From positions 2,341,426 through 2,405,425 of the forward strand of contig NZ_RBIL01000001.1 in the NCBI RefSeq assembly GCF_003633755.1: a stretch of 64,000 nucleotides of DNA, given 5' to 3'. A model generated the notes under the pieces. The model did not search any database. It saw nothing but the letters and a program-made list of their open reading frames with translations, and was not told where the DNA came from. This DNA comes from Solirubrobacter pauli. Lineage in GTDB: Bacteria; Actinomycetota; Thermoleophilia; Solirubrobacterales; Solirubrobacteraceae. The translations under genes were made by a program, and so were the position numbers. Position 1 is the stretch's first letter, and each line of letters starts with the position of its first letter. Below are positions 5,572 through 14,635 of this stretch, in pieces.

Positions 5572-6656
5572 CCCGCGACGAGCTCGAGCGGGCGCTGCGA
5601 GCGGTCGACGTGCCGGACGCGGTCGCCGCGCGCGAGCGGGCGCGGGCGACCGTGCTGGCGGCGCACCGGGAGCGCGCGCCGCGCCGTGGGCCGCGGGCCG
5701 CGCTCGTGTGGGCGCTGGTCGCGTGCGCGGTCGCCGCGGTCGCCTTCTCGGCGCGGGACACGCGGCCGGCGCGTGAGGTGCGCGAGCGCGTCCGCGACGT
5801 GTTCGCCGCCCCGGCGCCGGTGCCGACCGCTGCGCCGGCGGCGCTGTCCGGCCGCGTCCTCGTCAGCGAGGGCGACGAGCTGTTCCTCGTCGCGCGCGGG
5901 AAGCGCGCCTCGCTCGGGCACTGGCGGGATGCGTCGTGGTCGCCGCGCGGGCTCTACGCGGCGGTCGCCGGCGGGAACACGCTCGCGGCGATCGACCCGG
6001 CCGACGGCACCGTGCGCTGGAAGCTCGTCCACCGGGAGGAGGTCCGGTTCCCGCGCTGGGCGCCCGGCGGCCTGCACGTGGCGTACCGGGCGGGCACGAC
6101 CCTGCGGATCGTCTACGGCAACGGCACCCACGACGTGCGCGCCGGCCGCGCGATGGCGCCCGTCGCGCCCGCCTGGCGGCCCGGGCAGCCCCGCACGGTC
6201 GCGTGGGCGGGGCTCGACGGGACCGTGACCGTCGAGGACGCCGACACCGCGAAGGTGCTCTGGACGCGCACGGGAGGCCGCGTTCGGCACCTCGCCTGGT
6301 CCGCCGACGGCCGGCGACTGCTCGTCGCCGGCGCCCGCAACGGCACGATCCACGACTTCGAGACGGGCGCGCGCACGCGCGTGCGCGCAGACGGGACGAT
6401 CGTCGCGGTCGCGTTCGACCGGCGGCTCGCCCTCGCGATCCACCGCGACGGCCGCACGGCGGTGCGTGTCCGCGGCGAGGTCGTGCTCAGCGCCCCGGGA
6501 CGGCTGCGCGACCTCGAGTGGTCGCCCGACGGACGGGCGCTCCTGGCCGCCTGGCCCGGTGCGGACCACTGGCTGGTCGTCCGCGGGCGGGAGGTCAGCG
6601 CCGTGCGCCACCGGTTCGGCGGCGCGGCGCGCGTGCGCGGCTGGGCTACTCCGTGA
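5568..6656 (+). CDS. Probable anti-sigma factor, membrane-anchored beta-propeller protein
   Basis: Product is 362 residues. A cytoplasmic N-terminal ~40 residues (MTRDELERALRAVDVPDAV...) is followed by one transmembrane segment at about 44-60 (AALVWALVACAVAAVAF). The outside domain has repeated W-SPRG, W-SADG and W-SPDG motifs typical of WD40/TolB-like propeller blades. Overlap with the ECF sigma stop, one membrane pass and a sensor-like outer domain make it the likely anti-sigma. No clear zinc-finger HxxxCxxC motif is seen, so it would be a non-ZAS type. Its 3' end overlaps the convergent osmC-like gene by 11 bases. Confidence 0.65.
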   Translation: MTRDELERALRAVDVPDAVAARERARATVLAAHRERAPRRGPRAALVWALVACAVAAVAFSARDTRPAREVRERVRDVFAAPAPVPTAAPAALSGRVLVSEGDELFLVARGKRASLGHWRDASWSPRGLYAAVAGGNTLAAIDPADGTVRWKLVHREEVRFPRWAPGGLHVAYRAGTTLRIVYGNGTHDVRAGRAMAPVAPAWRPGQPRTVAWAGLDGTVTVEDADTAKVLWTRTGGRVRHLAWSADGRRLLVAGARNGTIHDFETGARTRVRADGTIVAVAFDRRLALAIHRDGRTAVRVRGEVVLSAPGRLRDLEWSPDGRALLAAWPGADHWLVVRGREVSAVRHRFGGAARVRGWATP

Positions 6657-7215
6657 CGCTCTCGACGACGACGGGCACGCCGTTGGTGATCATGTCCAGC
6701 ACCGCGGAGCGGTCCTGCGCGTGCTGGACGAGCGCGCGCAGCCTCTCGTCGGAGGCGTCACCGGTGACGCGGAGCGTGACGCGGATCTGCGAGCTGCCGT
6801 TGCGGATGCCGTCGTCCACGCCGAAGCAGCCGCGCACGTCCATGTCCGCCTCCACGCGGGACTCGATCTCGGTCAGGCGGATCTTGCGGGCGGCGGCGCA
6901 GTAGGCGATCGTGGTCGTCAGGCACGCCGCGACCGCATGCAGCAGGTACTCGATCGCGCTCGGCCCGGTGTCGGTGCCCAGCAGCACGGTCGGCTCGCCC
7001 GCGTCGACGACGAACGCCTCCCGGCGGCTGACGTCCTCCCGGCCGGCGCCGTGGAAGCCCTGCATGCGCGAGCGGTTGTGGGCGCCGTTGATCCAGCGGT
7101 TCGTCGTGCGGAAGGTGAACGCGCCGAGCGCCGGGTCCGCGCGGATCGCGTCGATCGTGGCGAACAGCTGCTGCGTGTCGACGCCGTTGCGGATCGTGGA
7201 GATCATCTGCGCCAT
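6646..7215 (-). CDS. OsmC/Ohr-family protein
   Basis: Product is 189 residues, probably a thiol-dependent peroxidase-like protein of the OsmC fold. Diagnostic regions are FVVDAGEP followed by SAIEYLLHAVAACLTT, with the buried cysteine of the AAC motif, and a second half beginning ESRVEADMDVRG, which fits the OsmC domain. The usual first active cysteine, expected earlier in the chain in true Ohr proteins, is not obvious, so peroxidase activity is uncertain. It is convergent with the anti-sigma gene and lies directly downstream of the SARP-hydrolase gene on the same strand, 60 bases apart. A CGTTTACCG element sits in that gap. Confidence 0.8.
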   Translation of the reverse strand: MAQMISTIRNGVDTQQLFATIDAIRADPALGAFTFRTTNRWINGAHNRSRMQGFHGAGREDVSRREAFVVDAGEPTVLLGTDTGPSAIEYLLHAVAACLTTTIAYCAAARKIRLTEIESRVEADMDVRGCFGVDDGIRNGSSQIRVTLRVTGDASDERLRALVQHAQDRSAVLDMITNGVPVVVESVTE

Positions 7216-7250
7216 GACGAGATGACAGCCGACCGCGGTTGGGCGGCGGT

Positions 7251-7274
7251 ATAAGCGCCGGTAAACGGTCGGTA
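7251..7274 (-). promoter_or_regulatory. Candidate SARP operator and promoter of osmC-like gene
   Basis: On the minus strand, two TACCG pentamers at 7274-7270 and 7263-7259 repeat with an 11-base period, the spacing expected for SARP direct repeats. The second lies inside CGTTTACCG (7267-7259). A TTATAC-like -10 follows four bases later. The same CGTTTACCGG(N)CGC layout recurs upstream of the flavin reductase gene. Confidence 0.5.
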
Positions 7275-7275
7275 G

Positions 7276-9309
7276 TCAGTGCTCCACGGTGTAGAGGCGC
7301 CACTCGCGGGACGCGCCCGCCAGCGGCAGCTCGACCGCGCCGCGCTCGGAGAACTCGATGCCGCTGCCCGCGACCAGATCCTGCACGGTGCTCGTCGCCA
7401 GGATCTCGCCCGCGGTGGCGGCGCGCGCCACGCCCGCCGCGATCTCCAGCGCCGGGCCGCCGAGCCGGCCGTCGACGAGCTCGCACTCCCCGGTGTGCAC
7501 GCCGGCGCGCAGGCGCGGGATCGCCTCGGCGAGCGTGGACGCGCAGCGCACCGCGCGGGCGGGGCCGTCGAAGCTCGCACGGAACCGACCGGGAGGTGCG
7601 TCGAGCGGCTGGCCACGGAAGCGCGCCAGCGCCGCTCGGGCGATCGCCAGGTCGGGTTCGGGCACGTCGGCGTCCAGCACGGTGGTGAGGATGAGGTTCG
7701 GCTCGACGTCCTGGGCGCGCAGGTCCGCGAGGAAGCGCTCGATCGCCTCGAGCACCGCGCCTTGGTCGCCCTCCCACGGCAGGTGGTCGGAGCCGGGCGC
7801 CTCGACGACGTGCGCGCCGGGCAGCCGGGCGCCCATGTACCGGCTCGCCTCGCGCAGGTACTCCTGCGCCCGGTAGACGACGAGCGACGGCACCCGCACC
7901 GTCCCGAGCACGTGGCGGACGTCGATCTCCTCGTTCATGTCCGTGATCGCGGCGACCGCCGCGGGCGACGCGCCGCGCACGAGGTAGGACGTGTACCAGT
8001 CGATCGCGGCCTCGTCGGTGGCGATCGTCGGCGCGCGCTCCCGCAGGAAGCGCTCGACGGCGTAGCGTCCCCACTGCTCGGCCGTCGGCCGCAGCCAGCC
8101 GTCCTGCTCGGCGCGGCGGCCGATCGGGTAGTCCGGCGCCCAGTTGCGCCGAGCGTAGGCGCCGAGCGTGACGAGCGCCTGCGTGCGGTCGGGGTGCGTG
8201 GCGGCGAACAGCGTGCACATCGGCCCGCCCTCGCTCACCCCGACGACCACGGCCCGCTCCGCGCCGACGGCGTCCATCACCGCGCGCACGTCGTCCATCC
8301 GCTCCTCGAGCGAGGCGATCCCGAGCACGCGGTCGGAGAGGCCGGTGCCGCGCTTGTCGAACAGGATCAGCCGCCCGAGCTTCGCGAGCCCGCGGTAGAA
8401 GGACGCGAGCGCGGGCCATTCCCACCCGGGCTGGAACGAGCAGATGAAGCCGTGGACGAAGATGATGTCCAGCGGGCCGTCGCCGACCACCTGGTAGGCG
8501 ATCGAGTAGCCGCCGACGCTCTGCACGTAGCGGATCGGCTCGAGCTTGAGCGCGGCCTCGTCCGACGTCTCCTCGCGCCCGTCCAGCCCGGCGTCCTGGC
8601 GCAGGATCCGGCGCTCGAGCTCGCGCATCCGCGCCGACGGCTCCAACCCGAGCTCCTCGTTGAGCGTCTCCCGGTACGCGTGGTAGACGGCCAGCGCGTC
8701 CGCCTCCCGGCCCGAGCGGTAGAGCGCGACCATCAGCTGCGCGCGCAGCCGCTCGCGCAGCGGGTTCGCGGCGACGTGGCTCTCGAGCTCCCCGACCAGG
8801 TCGGCGTGCCGGCCGAGCTGGAGGTCGGCGTCCACCCGGTCCTCGACGCACACCAGCAGCCGCTCGCGCAGGTGCGCGGCCTCGACGAGCGCGAACGGCT
8901 CGGAGAACTCGGCGAGCGCCGGGCCACGCCACAGGTCGAGCGCGGCGGCGAACCGGTCCGACGCGGTCGCCGCGTCACCGTGCTCGAGCGCCTGCCGGCC
9001 CTCCCGCCGCAGCCGCTCGAACCGGTCGAGGTCGAGCGGCAGCTCCAGCGCGTACCCGGGCGGCCGCGTGTGCAGCGTGCCCGGCGGCAGCGCCTTCCGC
9101 AGCGCCGACACGTGGATGTGGACCATCTTCACCGCCGACTCCGGGACCTCTTCGCCCCACAGGTCGTCCACGAGCTGGTCGACGGACACGGTGCGGCCGG
9201 CGTCCAACGCCAGCCGCGCGAGCAGCGCCCGCGGCTTGCGCCCGCCGAGCTTGAGCGCCTCGCCGCCGCCGTCCACGACCTCGAGCGGTCCCAGTAGTCG
9301 CAGCTCCAC
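7276..9309 (-). CDS. SARP/BTAD regulator fused to alpha/beta-hydrolase and degenerate nucleotidyl-cyclase domains
   Basis: Product is 677 residues. Residues 1-95 are an OmpR-like winged helix of the SARP type (GRKPRALLARLAL, HIHVSALRKALP). Residues 95-240 are a BTAD tetratricopeptide-like region. Residues ~258-530 are an alpha/beta hydrolase with oxyanion region FVHGF, nucleophile Ser359 in GVSEGG and His509 in GSDHLPW; the usual acid position reads RAQE instead of RxGD. Residues ~536-677 match the C-terminal half of class III cyclases (RAGVHTGECELVDG), but are shortened near the N-terminus and read APPGRF where AGDGF is expected, losing a metal-binding Asp. It is thus probably a ligand-sensing activator rather than an active cyclase. 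Start is GTG at 9309. Confidence 0.85.
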   Translation of the reverse strand: MELRLLGPLEVVDGGGEALKLGGRKPRALLARLALDAGRTVSVDQLVDDLWGEEVPESAVKMVHIHVSALRKALPPGTLHTRPPGYALELPLDLDRFERLRREGRQALEHGDAATASDRFAAALDLWRGPALAEFSEPFALVEAAHLRERLLVCVEDRVDADLQLGRHADLVGELESHVAANPLRERLRAQLMVALYRSGREADALAVYHAYRETLNEELGLEPSARMRELERRILRQDAGLDGREETSDEAALKLEPIRYVQSVGGYSIAYQVVGDGPLDIIFVHGFICSFQPGWEWPALASFYRGLAKLGRLILFDKRGTGLSDRVLGIASLEERMDDVRAVMDAVGAERAVVVGVSEGGPMCTLFAATHPDRTQALVTLGAYARRNWAPDYPIGRRAEQDGWLRPTAEQWGRYAVERFLRERAPTIATDEAAIDWYTSYLVRGASPAAVAAITDMNEEIDVRHVLGTVRVPSLVVYRAQEYLREASRYMGARLPGAHVVEAPGSDHLPWEGDQGAVLEAIERFLADLRAQDVEPNLILTTVLDADVPEPDLAIARAALARFRGQPLDAPPGRFRASFDGPARAVRCASTLAEAIPRLRAGVHTGECELVDGRLGGPALEIAAGVARAATAGEILATSTVQDLVAGSGIEFSERGAVELPLAGASREWRLYTVEH

Positions 9310-9319
9310 GGCCAGACGC

Positions 9320-9367
9320 TACCGGCTCACGGTAAACGCCTGCCAGCCGTTTACCGGACGCCTACTG
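9320..9367. promoter_or_regulatory. Divergent operator between SARP fusion gene and flavin reductase gene
   Basis: Inverted repeat CGGTAAACG (9330-9338) and CGTTTACCG (9348-9356) with a 9-base spacer, plus an extra TACCG at 9320-9324, lies in the 95-base divergent gap. To the right the arm is followed by a possible -10 (CTACTG, 9362-9367), to the left by TAGCGT. The same CGGTAAACG occurs at 7259-7267 upstream of the osmC-like gene. Confidence 0.55.
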
Positions 9368-9404
9368 CCCGTTGGCCCGCCTGCGGTCCACTGGCGCCCT
9401 CCCC

Positions 9405-9866
9405 ATGACGCCCTCCTACCGCCACGCCCTCAACGCGACCGTGACCGGCGTGACCATCGTCACCACCCGCCTCGCCGGGATCCCCTTCGGCGAGACCGTC
9501 ACCGCGCTCAGCTCCCTCTCCGACGAGCCCCCGCTGCTCCTCGTGACCGTCTCCCCCACGCTCGCGATCGCCATCCGCTCCCGCGGCGCGTTCGCCGCCA
9601 ACGTCCTGGGCGACCACCAGGCGGACCTGGCCGAGACCTTCCGCGCCGTCGACCCGAGATTCGACCCGCGCGACTGGTGGCCGGTGTCCGGGGGCGGACT
9701 CCCCCGCCTGCACGGCGCCGCCGCCCGGTTCGAGTGCGAGGTGGACCGCGTCCACGAGGCGGGCGAGCGTGTGCTGGTCATCGGCGCGGTGACCCGCGCG
9801 GTGCGAGGCACGACGGCGCCGCTGGCGTTCGTACGGCGAGGCTACGCGGCGCCGCTCGCGGCCTAG
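9405..9866 (+). CDS. Flavin reductase-like domain protein
   Basis: Product is 153 residues, of the FMN-binding split-barrel flavin reductase family (HpaC/HsaB type), which reduces FMN or FAD with NAD(P)H for a partner oxygenase. Family features are TGVTIVTTR near the start, then SSLSDEPPLLLVTVSP, FAANVLGD, and HGAAARFECEVDR. I choose ATG at 9405, giving MTPSYRHALNATVTGV; an in-frame ATG-less extension to 9372 would consume the operator-proximal region. It is transcribed away from the SARP fusion gene. Its stop shares the palindrome CTAG with the convergent fliI stop. No partner oxygenase is in the window. Confidence 0.78.
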   Translation: MTPSYRHALNATVTGVTIVTTRLAGIPFGETVTALSSLSDEPPLLLVTVSPTLAIAIRSRGAFAANVLGDHQADLAETFRAVDPRFDPRDWWPVSGGGLPRLHGAAARFECEVDRVHEAGERVLVIGAVTRAVRGTTAPLAFVRRGYAAPLAA

Positions 9867-11350
9867 GACGGGATGTGCAGCGGCGGGATCGCGTTGTGCA
9901 ACGGCATGCCACCGTCGGCGCCGTTGCCGGCGGCCATCGCCGCGGCCGGGTCGATGACGTGGCCGTTGAGCACGGGCGCCTCCCAGGTGCCGCTCAGCTG
10001 GGCGAGCTGGGCCAGCGTCGCGTCGGCCGACTCGGCCGAGGAGGGCTCGGTGACGAGCTGCTTGAGGAAGCCGTCGATCGGGTCGCGGGCCTCGATGGCC
10101 GCGTCGATCTGCGGATCGGAGCCGGGCTGGTAGGCGCCGATCGAGATGAGGTCGGCCTTCTCCTTGTAGGTGGCCATGAGCTTGCGGACCTCGTTGCCGG
10201 CGGCGCGGACGTCGGGCGTGGTGATCTCGCCGACCAGGCGCGAGACGGAGGCCAACACGTCGACCGCGGGGTAGTGGCCCGCGTGAGCGAGGTGGCGCGA
10301 GAGCACGATGTGGCCGTCGAGGATGCCTCGGACGGCGTCGGCGATCGGCTCGTTCATGTCGTCGCCGTCGACGAGCACGGTGTAGAGCGCGGTGATCGAG
10401 CCGGAGGGCGAGGTGCCGGTGCGCTCGAGGAGCTTCGGGAGCATCGCGAAGACGGACGGGGTGTAGCCGCGGGTGGCGGGCGGCTCGCCGATGGCCAGGC
10501 CGACTTCGCGCTGGGCCATGGCGAAGCGCGTGACGGAGTCCATCATCATCATCACGTTCTTGCCCTGATCGCGGAAGTACTCCGCGATCGCGGTGGCGGT
10601 GAACGCGGCCTTCAGGCGGACCAGCGCGGGCTGGTCGGAGGTGGCGCAGACGACGACGCTGCGCGCGAGGCCCTCCTCGCCGAGGTCGCGCTGCATGAAC
10701 TCGAGGACCTCTCGACCGCGCTCGCCGACCAGGCAGATGACGTTGATCTCCTCCGAGGTCGACCGGGCGATCATGCCCAGGAGCGAGGACTTGCCGACGC
10801 CGGAGCCGGCGAAGATGCCGATGCGCTGGCCGCGCCCGCAGGGCACGAACGCGTCGAGCGAGCGCACGCCGAGCGAGACGCGCTCGTGGATGCGCGGACG
10901 GGAGAGCGGATCGGGCGGCGCCTGCTCGGCCGGGTACCAGCTCGTGTGCTCGATCGGGCCCTTGCCGTCGAGCGGGTTGCCGAGGCCGTCGAGCGCGCGG
11001 CCGAGGAGCGCATCGCTCACGTCGACCTTCAGCGGCTGGCCGGTCGCGACCACCTTGGAGCCGGGGCCGATGCCCTTGGGCTCGCCGAGCGGCATCAGCA
11101 GCGTGCGGCCCTGGCGGAAGCCGACGACCTCCGCGGGCACGGACGCGCGCCCACGGCCGGTCTCGATCGTGCAGACCTCGCCGACCTCGGCCTCCAGGCC
11201 GGTGGCCTCGGTGATCAGGCCGATCAGGTCGACGACACGGCCGGTGCGCCGGTGCAGGTCCGCCTCGCGGATCGCGAGCGTGGCCTCGTCAAGCAGGTCA
11301 TCTTCGGCAGCGCCGACCGCGTCGAGCGCGCTCTCCATCAGCGAGAACAT
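9863..11350 (-). CDS. fliI: Flagellum-specific ATP synthase FliI
   Basis: Product is 495 residues, the export ATPase at the base of the flagellar type III apparatus. A beta-barrel domain at ~30-115 is followed by the ATPase core with Walker A AGSGVGKSS at 181-189, MMMMDSVTRFAMAQREVG (Walker B region), and GEPPATRGYTPSVFA. It is longer than the 457-residue Salmonella protein owing to an acidic N-terminal helix and a C-terminal tail. ATG at 11350 is the first possible start, since an in-frame TAG directly precedes it. A FliA-like -10 ends eight bases upstream, pointing to leaderless translation. fliJ, normally next, lies 5.7 kb away. Confidence 0.93.
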   Translation of the reverse strand: MFSLMESALDAVGAAEDDLLDEATLAIREADLHRRTGRVVDLIGLITEATGLEAEVGEVCTIETGRGRASVPAEVVGFRQGRTLLMPLGEPKGIGPGSKVVATGQPLKVDVSDALLGRALDGLGNPLDGKGPIEHTSWYPAEQAPPDPLSRPRIHERVSLGVRSLDAFVPCGRGQRIGIFAGSGVGKSSLLGMIARSTSEEINVICLVGERGREVLEFMQRDLGEEGLARSVVVCATSDQPALVRLKAAFTATAIAEYFRDQGKNVMMMMDSVTRFAMAQREVGLAIGEPPATRGYTPSVFAMLPKLLERTGTSPSGSITALYTVLVDGDDMNEPIADAVRGILDGHIVLSRHLAHAGHYPAVDVLASVSRLVGEITTPDVRAAGNEVRKLMATYKEKADLISIGAYQPGSDPQIDAAIEARDPIDGFLKQLVTEPSSAESADATLAQLAQLSGTWEAPVLNGHVIDPAAAMAAGNGADGGMPLHNAIPPLHIPS

Positions 11351-11358
11351 CTAGGTCC

Positions 11359-11385
11359 GTATCGGCCGCGGGGGGCGGAACTTGA
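11359..11385 (-). promoter_or_regulatory. Candidate FliA-type promoter of fliI
   Basis: On the minus strand, TCAA (11385-11382), 15 bases, then GCCGATAC (11366-11359), eight bases before the fliI ATG. It is inside the flgB-fliI unit, so it would be an internal promoter. Confidence 0.55.
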
Positions 11386-11389
11386 GCCG

Positions 11390-12037
11390 CTAGGCCTTGG
11401 GCGACCGAGCGGACCGCTTGGCGGAGGGCTTCGCCAGCGCGGCCGCGACGACCTCGGTCGCGCGCTCGAGCTTGGTCTCGATCCGCGCGTCCACGTCACC
11501 CACGGGCGTGCGCACGATGCAGCCGCCACGGCCGACGCGCCGCTCGGCCTCGATCACGCACTGGTCGATGCCGCCGAGCGTGGCCTTCAGCTCCTCGGCC
11601 GCGCCCTGGACGATCTCGAGATCCTCCGGGTTGACCATGACGATCACCCGCTCACGCTCGACGATCCCGCGCAGCGCGCCCTGGACCGAGTCCAGCACCC
11701 GCTCGGGCTGGACCGACAGCGCGCCGGCCAGCACCTTGGACGCGAGCGCCATGCCCAGCTCGACCGCGCGGCGCTCGAGCTCGGCGGCGGTGTCCACCTG
11801 CGCGGCGCGCACCTCCTCGGTGGCCGCGGCCAGCGCGGACAGCGCCGGGGCGAGCGCCTCGAGCGCCTCGTGGCGACCGGCGGCGTAGCCCTCCTCGAGG
11901 GCCTGGCGACGGATCTGGTCGGCCTCGGCACGCGCCTCGGCGAGCACGTCCATGACGGCCGCGGCCTGGTCGGCCGGCGACAGCTCGGGCGCCGGCGGCT
12001 CGAGCATCTCGAAGTCGAATTCAGCGACGAAGCCCAT
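11390..12037 (-). CDS. fliH: Flagellar assembly protein FliH
   Basis: Product is 215 residues, the FliI-binding stator-like regulator of the export ATPase. After an acidic, Pro-rich N-terminus comes a long helix (AEARAEADQIRRQALEEGY) and a C-terminal V-ATPase E-subunit-like domain containing VNPEDLEIV and RVGRGGCIVRTPVGDVDARI, the best conserved FliH signature. It ends with a basic tail. It starts two bases after the fliG stop, and fliI follows after 39 bases holding a putative internal promoter. Confidence 0.9.
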   Translation of the reverse strand: MGFVAEFDFEMLEPPAPELSPADQAAAVMDVLAEARAEADQIRRQALEEGYAAGRHEALEALAPALSALAAATEEVRAAQVDTAAELERRAVELGMALASKVLAGALSVQPERVLDSVQGALRGIVERERVIVMVNPEDLEIVQGAAEELKATLGGIDQCVIEAERRVGRGGCIVRTPVGDVDARIETKLERATEVVAAALAKPSAKRSARSPKA

Positions 12038-12039
12038 GG

Positions 12040-13086
12040 CTACACCAAGGCGTCCTCGCCGGACCCGCCACCGCGGGAGATGACGATCGCGCCGGCCTCC
12101 TCGAGGCGACGGACGACACCCACGATGCGGCCCTGGGCCTCTTCCACCACACGCTTGCGCTGCGGCGGCTGGAACTGGATCTCCTCCTTGAGGAGCTCCG
12201 CGCCACGCTCGGACATGTTGCCGAAGATCTTGCCCGCGACGTCGTCGCTGACGCCGCGCAGGGCGATCGCGAGGTCCTTCTGGTCGACCTCCTTGAGCAC
12301 CATCTGGATCGAGCGGTCGTCGAGCTTGACGACGTCCTCGAAGGTGAACAGCAGGAGGCGGATCTCCTCGGCCAGCTCGCCGTCGGCCTTGGCCAGCTCG
12401 TCGAGCACGTTGCGCTCGGTCGTCCGGTCGGAGCTGTTGAGGATGTCGGCCAGGGACTTGACGCCACCGGCGGCCGCGTACTCCTGCGAGCCGACCGCGG
12501 ACAGCCGCGAGCGCATGACGCTCTCGACGTGCGACACGACCTCCGGCCGGGTCTCGGCCATGAGCGCGATCCGCAGGGCCACGTCGGCCTGGATCTCCGG
12601 GTCGATGTCCGACAGCACCTGGGCGGCGAGCGTCGTGTGCAGGTTCGAGACCACCAGCGCGATCGTCTGCGGCGACTCGTTGCGCAGGAAGACCACGATC
12701 TGCTCGGCCGGCGTGCGGCGCAGGAACTCGAACGGACGGCGCTCGATCGTGGCGGCGAGGCGCCCGATGATCTCCTCCGCGCGATCCTCGCCCAGCGAGC
12801 GCATCAGCACGCTGCGGGCGTAGTCCACGCCACCCTCGGCGAGGTAGTCCTCGGCGAGGACCGACTCGACGGCCTCCGTGATCACGTCACGGCAGACCTC
12901 GGTTGGGATCTTCTGGGCCTTGGCGAGCTCGAGCGAGAGCGCCTCCACCTCGGACTCACCGAGGTACTTGAAGATCTCGCCGGCCCGCTGCTCGCCGATC
13001 GCGACGAGCAGGGCGGCGGCCTTCTGGATGCCCTTGAGGCCGGCGGCGGTGACCGCCGGCTTCTCGATGTCCTTCAGCGCGGCCAT
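12040..13086 (-). CDS. fliG: Flagellar motor switch protein FliG
   Basis: Product is 348 residues and forms the rotor ring that contacts the stators and FliF. The N-terminal domain (KAAALLVAIGEQRAGEIFKYL) binds FliF. The middle domain carries NESPQTIALVVSNL, equivalent to the EHPQ region. The C-terminal domain contains the torque helix with alternating charge, around LDDRSIQMVLKEVDQKDL, and SERGAELLKEEI. Length and order match the family. It lies between fliF and fliH with gaps of only 4 and 2 bases. Confidence 0.95.
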   Translation of the reverse strand: MAALKDIEKPAVTAAGLKGIQKAAALLVAIGEQRAGEIFKYLGESEVEALSLELAKAQKIPTEVCRDVITEAVESVLAEDYLAEGGVDYARSVLMRSLGEDRAEEIIGRLAATIERRPFEFLRRTPAEQIVVFLRNESPQTIALVVSNLHTTLAAQVLSDIDPEIQADVALRIALMAETRPEVVSHVESVMRSRLSAVGSQEYAAAGGVKSLADILNSSDRTTERNVLDELAKADGELAEEIRLLLFTFEDVVKLDDRSIQMVLKEVDQKDLAIALRGVSDDVAGKIFGNMSERGAELLKEEIQFQPPQRKRVVEEAQGRIVGVVRRLEEAGAIVISRGGGSGEDALV

Positions 13087-13090
13087 CTGA

Positions 13091-14635
13091 CTAGTCCTCC
13101 GCCATCCAGGCCTTGACCTGCGCGGCGACGCGCTCGGGCTCGCGCTCCATCAGCTGGTCGAGCTGATGCATGCTGGCGTCCGGAGCGCGCGGCGGCAGCA
13201 TGGCCGTCGAGGCGTTGTCGAGCGTGAAGTTCTGGCCGGCGCCCGCCTCGAGCTGAGCCAGCGACACCGGCTCGGAGATCTCCGTCAGCCAGGCCGGCGT
13301 CAGGTTCTCGTTCTCGCGCTTGCGCATGCCGCGGGTCATGAAGAAGAGGAACAGCAGCGCCGCCAGGCCGAGGCCGACCCACTTGAGCGGACCGAGCAGC
13401 GTCGTCGGCACCGGGCCCGCCTTGGGCGTCTCCGCCTTGGCGAACGCGAACTGCGTCGAGGTGATCGTGTCGCCGCGCTGCGTGTCGACGCCGGCGGCGG
13501 TCGCGACCGTGTTCTTGAGCGCGGTCGCCACGTCGGCCGGGACCGACTTGTCGAGGATCAGGGCGACGTTCATCTTGTTGACCTCGCCCGGGGCCTTCTT
13601 GGTCTTGGTGACCTTCTTGTTGACGCCGTTGACGGTCGTCTGCTTCTTGTTCTCGTAGTTGCCGCCGGCGCCCGCGCCGTTGTTCCCGTTGTCGGAGTAG
13701 GTCGGGACGTTGCGGCCGGTGCCGGCCGTGCCACCCGCGCCGGCGGCGTTCGCGCCTTCCATCTTCTCGGACTCGATCGTCTCGGTCAGCGGAGTGCTCT
13801 GGCCGCCGTACGTCTCGGACTCCTCGGTCGTGTCGTCCACGTTGAGGTCGGCGTTGACGGTGACCTTGGCCTTGTTCGGGCCGAGCGTCTGGGCGAGCAT
13901 CGCGTTGATGGCCGCCTCCTTCTGGCGGGCGAAGCGCGCCTCGGCGGCCTGCTTGGTGCCGCTGCCGGTCGCGCCGGCCTCGTCGGACGGCCACAGGATC
14001 GTGCCGGTGGAGTCGGTGATGGTGACGTTCGCGCTCTTCAGGCCCTTCACGGAGGAGGCGACGGTCTGCGCCATGCCGCGCACGGCGCCCGGCTCGAGCG
14101 TGTCGGCCGTGTTGCCGAGCTGCACGGAGGCGGTCGCGGCCGAGGCCTCGTCCTGGAAGAGGTCGTCCTGCGGCATCACGACCTGGACCTGCGGGTTCGA
14201 GACGCCCTGCACGCTGGCCAGCGTCTTGCCGATCTCGCCCTCCAGCGCACGCTGGTAGGTGACCTGCTGCTGGAACTGCGAAGCGCCGAGCTTGCTCTGG
14301 TCGAGCAGGGTGTAGCCCTCGTCGGAGCCGCCGCCGCCCGTGGTCCCGACACCCTGCGAGGCGAGCGCGATGCGCGCCTGCGCCATCGAGGCCTTCTGCA
14401 CCGCGAGCGCCGTGCCGTTGTTCTGGAGCTCGTAGGCGATGCCCTGCTCGTCGAGCGCCGCGGTGATCTTGCCCGTCTGGGCGGGATCGAGGCCCGAGGC
14501 GATCGTCGAGTACGCCGGCGCCGTCGCGATCTTGAGCAGCAGGAAGGCGATCGCCAGGATGGCGAAGGCCGACACGCCGAGGATCGCCTTGGTCTTGGCG
14601 GGCAGGGCGAGGATGTTCTGGATGAAGGGCGGCAT
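13091..14635 (-). CDS. fliF: Flagellar MS-ring protein FliF
   Basis: Product is 514 residues and builds the membrane ring on which the basal body forms. Transmembrane segments are at about 19-38 (AILGVSAFAILAIAFLLLKI) and about 435-452 (LGLAALLFLFFMTRG). The periplasmic part has the ring-building motifs GTALAVQKASMAQARIALAS and the SNPQVQVVMPQDDLF region. A Gly/Asn-rich linker at ~300-330 is characteristic. The short C-terminal tail ends in acidic residues (AWMAED), the FliG-binding part. It lies between fliE and fliG. Confidence 0.95.
   Translation of the reverse strand: MPPFIQNILALPAKTKAILGVSAFAILAIAFLLLKIATAPAYSTIASGLDPAQTGKITAALDEQGIAYELQNNGTALAVQKASMAQARIALASQGVGTTGGGGSDEGYTLLDQSKLGASQFQQQVTYQRALEGEIGKTLASVQGVSNPQVQVVMPQDDLFQDEASAATASVQLGNTADTLEPGAVRGMAQTVASSVKGLKSANVTITDSTGTILWPSDEAGATGSGTKQAAEARFARQKEAAINAMLAQTLGPNKAKVTVNADLNVDDTTEESETYGGQSTPLTETIESEKMEGANAAGAGGTAGTGRNVPTYSDNGNNGAGAGGNYENKKQTTVNGVNKKVTKTKKAPGEVNKMNVALILDKSVPADVATALKNTVATAAGVDTQRGDTITSTQFAFAKAETPKAGPVPTTLLGPLKWVGLGLAALLFLFFMTRGMRKRENENLTPAWLTEISEPVSLAQLEAGAGQNFTLDNASTAMLPPRAPDASMHQLDQLMEREPERVAAQVKAWMAED

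Follow-up and report, generated by a model that had tools for sequence, protein, structure and literature searches.

A SARP regulator carrying a LipJ-type hydrolase and a degenerate cyclase in Solirubrobacter pauli, and a suggested repeated replacement of cyclase output by DNA binding in its relatives

The gene considered in this study lies in a 64,000-nucleotide stretch of the Solirubrobacter pauli genome (contig NZ_RBIL01000001.1, positions 2,341,426 to 2,405,425), hereafter the window. It is a single GTG-started frame on the minus strand (7276..9309) that encodes a 677-residue protein in which a SARP-BTAD module is followed by an α/β hydrolase and the remnant of a class III cyclase. The fusion gene is flanked by a divergent flavin reductase-like gene (9405..9866, plus strand, Pfam PF01613, with an alternative TTG start at 9372) and, downstream, by an OsmC-like protein gene (6646..7215, minus strand, PF02566), both supported by synteny and both predicted targets of the fusion, and each of the two gaps holds a candidate operator. 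The Pfam scan of the fusion placed Trans_reg_C at residues 24-76, BTAD at 92-236 and Abhydrolase at 282-520. The winged helix (PF00486) and the BTAD that follows it (PF03704, E 3.8e-48) both scored above their cut-offs, which is the hallmark of a SARP. The domains were delimited on the minus strand as the SARP winged-helix DNA-binding domain (residues 1-91, 9037..9309), BTAD (92-240, 8590..9036), the hydrolase (258-531, 7717..8538) and the cyclase (537-676, 7282..7701). The scan returned no match to any cyclase model and no NB-ARC/AAA, TPR or LAL region, the tail consisting of hydrolase and cyclase. The NCBIfam LipJ profile (NF058673) was co-linear with fusion residues 259-674 over positions 10-448 of its 449, at a score of 256.7 bits that did not reach the curated family cut-off of 800 bits. 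AfsR, EmbR and the Rv1900c cyclase (1ybt) were found as sequence matches in the PDB, the SARP-BTAD part agreed with AfsR (8k60) at 44% identity and a TMt of 0.92 in structure comparison, and the whole-chain AlphaFold model had a predicted local distance difference test score (pLDDT) of 92.8. A preliminary description of the window had proposed this four-part chain, and the Pfam, LipJ profile and PDB matches confirm it.

The full fusion is kept in six of seven Solirubrobacter genomes. Beyond the genus it was found in a single genome, G068, which belongs to a different genus of the same family. Identity to the window protein is 86-94% for four Solirubrobacter genomes, 73% for S. soli and 58% for G068. 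This end-to-end conservation within Solirubrobacter, together with the 58% identity in another genus, excludes a chance open reading frame (ORF). Antisense and overlapping ORFs were also considered and rejected, 7276-9309 on the minus strand being the frame conserved as protein. Between close species, the ratio of nonsynonymous to synonymous substitution rates (dN/dS) was 0.09-0.19 for SARP, 0.13-0.28 for BTAD, 0.08-0.23 for the hydrolase and 0.09-0.23 for the cyclase remnant, and free variation was confined to a short linker, so that by this measure all domains are under purifying selection. A query spanning the BTAD-hydrolase joint was run against 232 genomes from the order and 246 sampled from the phylum, and it found no further clear fusion. 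Outside the phylum the census was one scan of genome contigs and plasmids; on the contigs the hydrolase-cyclase unit was otherwise SARP-less and was spread over many phyla.

Column conservation identified Ser359 (codon 8233-8235, minus strand) as the hydrolase nucleophile, His509 (7783-7785) as the base and Glu483 (7861-7863) as the acid. Ser359 and His509 had been called intact in the preliminary description and are so; the acid position, called altered there, has indeed changed, but only from Asp to Glu, a conservative step, with Glu in Solirubrobacter and Asp in the sister-genus protein of G068. The Ser, His and acidic residue lie in register, as would be expected of a catalytic α/β hydrolase, and the triad is retained in every SARP fusion of the Solirubrobacter/G068 clade. 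Esterases gave the best structure matches (Z up to 32.6), the nearest being true esterases and perhydrolases. RsbQ (1wom, Z 29.1) and D14 (3vxk, Z 28.9) were also among the top structures, in keeping with an analogy to strigolactone receptors and RsbQ that had been drawn earlier, but the likeness extends to the shared fold only. RsbQ and the plant receptors D14 and KAI2 use a hydrolase fold and catalytic triad in signalling; they differ from the fusion in signalling via a partner protein, the identity is about 22%, and plain esterases match as well or better. With such neighbours in structure space, an intact Ser-Glu-His triad and metabolic enzymes encoded alongside, the protein might be a bifunctional enzyme, that is, a working catabolic or detoxifying esterase that senses nothing and whose SARP part merely ties its expression to that of the local operon. 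We regard this as unlikely, since members of the hydrolase family are joined to cyclases and, time and again, to DNA-binding domains of different kinds, triad-less versions included, which an input domain fits better. As an input, the hydrolase domain probably binds a small ester- or lactone-like ligand, which it may slowly hydrolyse. The open-access literature gave no settled answer as to what the Rv1900c-type hydrolase domain senses, or whether it is a sensor at all.

The cyclase tail alone matched the Rv1900c cyclase (1ybt) with an E value of 4e-15. Class III cyclases are recognized by two metal-binding Asp and a transition-state Arg, a set that the fusion does not retain. The second metal Asp of the window protein is Gly574, the transition-state Asn/His position is Glu622 and the Arg is Gly626. 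At the first metal Asp the window protein nominally has Asp548, but some orthologues have Glu or lack the position. Among the fusions, Gly or Asn replaces the second Asp and Gly or Ala the Arg, Glu or Asp stands at the Asn/His position, and the stretch after the first strand is shorter by at least 18 residues, the near-invariant GDxxW among them. For comparison, the first metal Asp, the second metal Asp and the Arg are each present in 98% of the SARP-less relatives. One lost metal Asp and some 20 residues missing from the start of the domain had been reported previously. Alignment with the Rv1900c cyclase and other relatives bore out the metal-site loss and revealed no intact cyclase active site, but it added the changes at Glu622 and Gly626 and mapped an 18-residue deletion to the helices that follow the first strand (α1-α2 region). 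Modelled alone, the cyclase part had a pLDDT of 94.9 and Z scores of 21-22 to the Ma1120 and Rv1900c cyclases (21.9 to 1ybu). Judged by residues and model together, the cyclase is catalytically dead with its predicted fold intact.

The low dN/dS of the cyclase remnant is not what a neutrally evolving tail would show. The earlier suggestion that the old cyclase is kept as a regulatory domain thus agrees with our results as far as its being kept is concerned, through purifying selection and a confident cyclase-like fold; as to its role, it most likely serves as a dimerising or signal-relaying scaffold. Many non-catalytic positions are retained along with the fold (e.g., FDGPARA and GVHTGECE), and this would also be compatible with a dead cyclase that still binds nucleotide and does the sensing itself, with the hydrolase as relay. 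We consider such a role highly improbable: the second metal Asp, the Arg and neighbouring nucleotide-site residues are gone, the α1-α2 region is deleted, and relatives in Paraburkholderia and Caballeronia keep the hydrolase with the cyclase domain wholly missing.

The state of the cyclase was then compared with the presence of a DNA-binding domain across the hydrolase family. All three cyclase residues (D, D, R) were kept in 131 of the 135 non-SARP relatives gathered. The four exceptions were a duplicate in S. soli, the stand-alone sequence L209, and the proteins L028 (Thermomicrobiales) and L074 (Gemmatimonadales), both with a C-terminal LuxR-type (GerE) domain, which leaves D, D and R intact in 131 of the 133 relatives lacking a DNA-binding domain. 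L209, from a draft genome, has a deletion over the first Asp with the remaining residues intact; it was rejected as a further dead cyclase and is counted as an exception. DNA-binding domains hidden in the N-terminal extensions of other relatives were likewise rejected, none of the 46 extensions having a Pfam match. The plasmid search, from which proteins were picked for a match that extended into a DNA-binding domain or stopped short of the cyclase, added a Sinorhizobium terangae protein with SARP-BTAD, hydrolase and dead cyclase (L230), and proteins of Shinella (L231) and Phyllobacterium (L232) with hydrolase, dead cyclase and GerE. Two more had no cyclase, namely one from Paraburkholderia caribensis (L233) with a hydrolase and a part judged SARP-BTAD-like from reading the sequence, and one from Caballeronia (L235) with hydrolase and GerE. 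Among all the relatives gathered from genome contigs and plasmids, no hydrolase-family protein combining a DNA-binding domain with an intact cyclase was found. The cyclase was dead in 5/5 cyclase-bearing lineages with a DNA-binding domain and in 2/135 sequences without one (Fisher p ~5e-8), where the 135 include the intact plasmid sequences L237 and L238 and are not independent of one another, and where five is an upper count of lineages, as L028 may belong with the Solirubrobacter clade.

A quick tree required at least seven changes of the DNA-binding state. In its closest contrasting pair, the S. terangae fusion with its dead cyclase was sister to a stand-alone protein of S. meliloti whose cyclase residues are intact, at a Shimodaira-Hasegawa-like approximate likelihood ratio test (SH-aLRT) support of 99. 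Monophyly of L028 with the Solirubrobacter clade was not rejected (approximately unbiased (AU) test, p 0.27); its independence is favoured because its DNA-binding domain is of a different type and stands at the other end. These results suggest that one sensor was switched, more than once in evolution, from making a chemical messenger to controlling genes directly. It appears about as probable as its contrary that LipJ-type hydrolases are a widespread small-molecule sensor that, in some five lineages or more, exchanged cyclic-nucleotide synthesis as its output for direct binding to DNA, of SARP or LuxR type, each time with death or loss of the cyclase, Solirubrobacter being a case with a conserved candidate operator and nameable targets. 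Activity is known for some mycobacterial cyclases that carry AAA and HTH-LuxR parts, and the rule of cyclase loss is therefore limited to the LipJ-type hydrolase family.

Candidate operator A (9331..9366, plus strand), between the fusion and the flavin reductase gene, consists of TGCC-N7-TACC-N7-TACT repeats around the octamer CGTTTACC, beside which lies a 25-bp palindrome, GGTAAACGCCTGCCAGCCGTTTACC (9331-9355). Candidate operator B (7248..7275, minus strand), between the fusion and the OsmC gene, has TACC-N7-TACC-N8-TACC repeats around the same octamer. CGTTTACC occurs in both flanking gaps of the fusion in all five species examined and is the sole 8-mer common to the ten gaps, and none of 2000 shuffled sets had any shared 8-mer. 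It is embedded in TACC-like half-sites that recur as direct repeats every 11 bp, and pairs of [TA]ACC at 11 bp were found in the downstream gap in 5/6 loci, against 0.01 expected. The full operator patterns each had one match in the 7.1-Mb genome, both at these two sites; as the patterns were written from the sites, the informative part is that there are no other matches and that they are conserved across species. In G068, three 11-bp tandem repeats of GGCGCCTACCG directly follow the stop codon of the fusion. Operators described for SARPs consist of direct repeats with a spacing of 11 or 22 bp, the last of which lies near -10 (PMC10936776; PMC5930380), and the candidate sites resemble them in their 11-bp layout. 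PimR-type SARP-LAL regulators are comparable in their operator, which has heptamers with 4-bp spacers (PMC5930380); they differ from the fusion in having an ATP/GTP-binding LAL-like part and no cyclase fold or hydrolase. A TAGCGT lies 7 nt ahead of the fusion GTG in the window, a position that would suit a leaderless transcript.

Considering these results, we slightly favour a model in which the fusion is a one-component activator, where the hydrolase senses a ligand, SARP-BTAD DNA binding has replaced the cyclase output, and the flavin reductase and OsmC genes are the targets. The hydrolase domain of the LipJ/Rv1900c family, which stand-alone relatives combine with a class III cyclase that appears active, would be the input and would bind an ester- or lactone-like ligand; it is assigned this part because the cyclase has repeatedly been replaced by DNA-binding domains on the same hydrolase. 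The N-terminal SARP-BTAD module would have taken over as output, and the cyclase, with catalysis gone and fold kept, would act as the scaffold proposed above. Ligand occupancy would then control the side-by-side seating of SARP protomers on the 11-bp-spaced TACC repeats, and the seated protomers would bring RNA polymerase to the two predicted targets, flavin reductase on the divergent side and OsmC downstream. In AfsR, ATP binding lifts a restraint that the C-terminal domains impose on the SARP domain (PMC10936776), and by analogy the hydrolase ligand might release it in the fusion.

Class III cyclase folds dimerise, and the hydrolase-cyclase tail might accordingly be only a constitutive dimerisation or stability module, with the SARP part activating without any signal. 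Small SARPs, which have no sensor domain, offer a precedent (PMC10972967). We find this doubtful, because such a module would not need to keep the hydrolase catalytic residues and because the C-terminal domains of AfsR are inhibitory and ligand-responsive (PMC10936776). Several points weigh against the sensing model as well. The whole-chain model had a predicted template modelling score (pTM) of 0.58, so the interdomain arrangement is uncertain. The operator A palindrome is intact in the window genome and S. phytolaccae only, and direct repeats are favoured over it for this reason. The neighbours of the G068 fusion, a glyoxalase-family gene upstream and a small winged-helix-like gene downstream, differ from those in Solirubrobacter, so that the regulon is not fixed. 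The triad is broken in two DNA-binding relatives (Ser to Ala in Phyllobacterium L232 and His to Tyr in Thermomicrobiales L028), and hydrolysis may thus not matter generally. Finally, the S. soli duplicate, with a dead cyclase and no SARP, has no obvious output.

Besides the PimR-type regulators and the RsbQ/D14/KAI2 proteins, three known systems are close to the fusion. LipJ/Rv1900c of Mycobacterium tuberculosis, a hydrolase with a class III adenylyl cyclase (1ybt/1ybu), aligns end to end with residues 259-674, matches the cyclase fold and likewise has no canonical Asn (PMC4886424), but it has no SARP-BTAD, and it is the fusion that has lost the metal Asp, the Arg and 18 residues. AfsR and other large or medium SARPs share the N-terminal SARP-BTAD, and the candidate sites resemble theirs in having 11-bp direct repeats, whereas AfsR has NOD/NB-ARC and TPR parts in place of the hydrolase-cyclase sensor. 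EmbR of M. tuberculosis (2fez) also joins SARP-BTAD to a single C-terminal input domain of a different family, in its case a phosphopeptide-binding FHA domain. No description of a SARP-hydrolase-cyclase architecture was found in the open-access literature. The preliminary description, which had thought the design plausibly undescribed, missed the LipJ/Rv1900c unit and the AfsR/EmbR-type SARPs; its sensor idea gains support. Taken alone, the fusion is a new variant of SARP regulator built on a known hydrolase-cyclase unit. What is also new is that the cyclase is dead or missing in every relative found with a DNA-binding domain, against 131/133 intact without one, and enzymatic-domain decay thereby tracks the change of signalling output across unrelated bacteria. 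The fusion and the repeated cyclase loss together are of clear interest, and the short candidate operator would allow ligands to be screened with simple transcription assays, the host being a harmless soil organism.

The S. soli duplicate (L024, 2990-4237) encodes a SARP-less hydrolase with an equally dead cyclase and stands in tandem just upstream of the fusion. It nests within the fusion clade in a careful tree (99/91) and therefore most simply descended from the fused form; the S. soli fusion retains at its joint MDPIRYV, which equals the start of the SARP-less copy. The copy is possibly a partner or decoy.

Several minor observations concern the distant relatives. The hydrolase domains of L232 and L028 sit in regulators and cannot be ordinary hydrolases. 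After the GerE fusions of Shinella (L231, 3672-4556) and Phyllobacterium (L232, 3687-4558) come, in both cases, a gene of the carboxymuconolactone decarboxylase family and one for an NTF2-like protein, and this conserved cassette may be their target. A more distant hydrolase of Mesorhizobium (L234, 1641-3041) has the reversed order, an N-terminal cyclase and then the hydrolase. In Rhizobium, a short BTAD protein (L239, 2501-3109) resembles the first part of the S. terangae fusion at 76% identity, and in Ensifer canadensis a short ORF (L236, 2513-2983) resembles the dead cyclase of that fusion at 72%; both are possible broken remnants of an S. terangae-type fusion.

The order of divergent flavin reductase, fusion and OsmC is found in all fusion-bearing Solirubrobacter loci, and neither OsmC nor flavin reductase was found beside other LipJ-like genes outside Solirubrobacter. 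The genes on either side of the candidate operators point, as a hint only, to flavin or peroxide chemistry. A TolB-like gene comes next in the opposite direction, with an acyl-CoA dehydrogenase-like gene and another ORF intervening in S. soli. On the other side, fliI adjoins the set wherever the locus extends that far. Flagellar genes occupy 9863-14635 of the window (FliI, FliH and neighbours that are FliG/FliF-like by eye), and FliI, FliH and FliG are syntenic within the genus.
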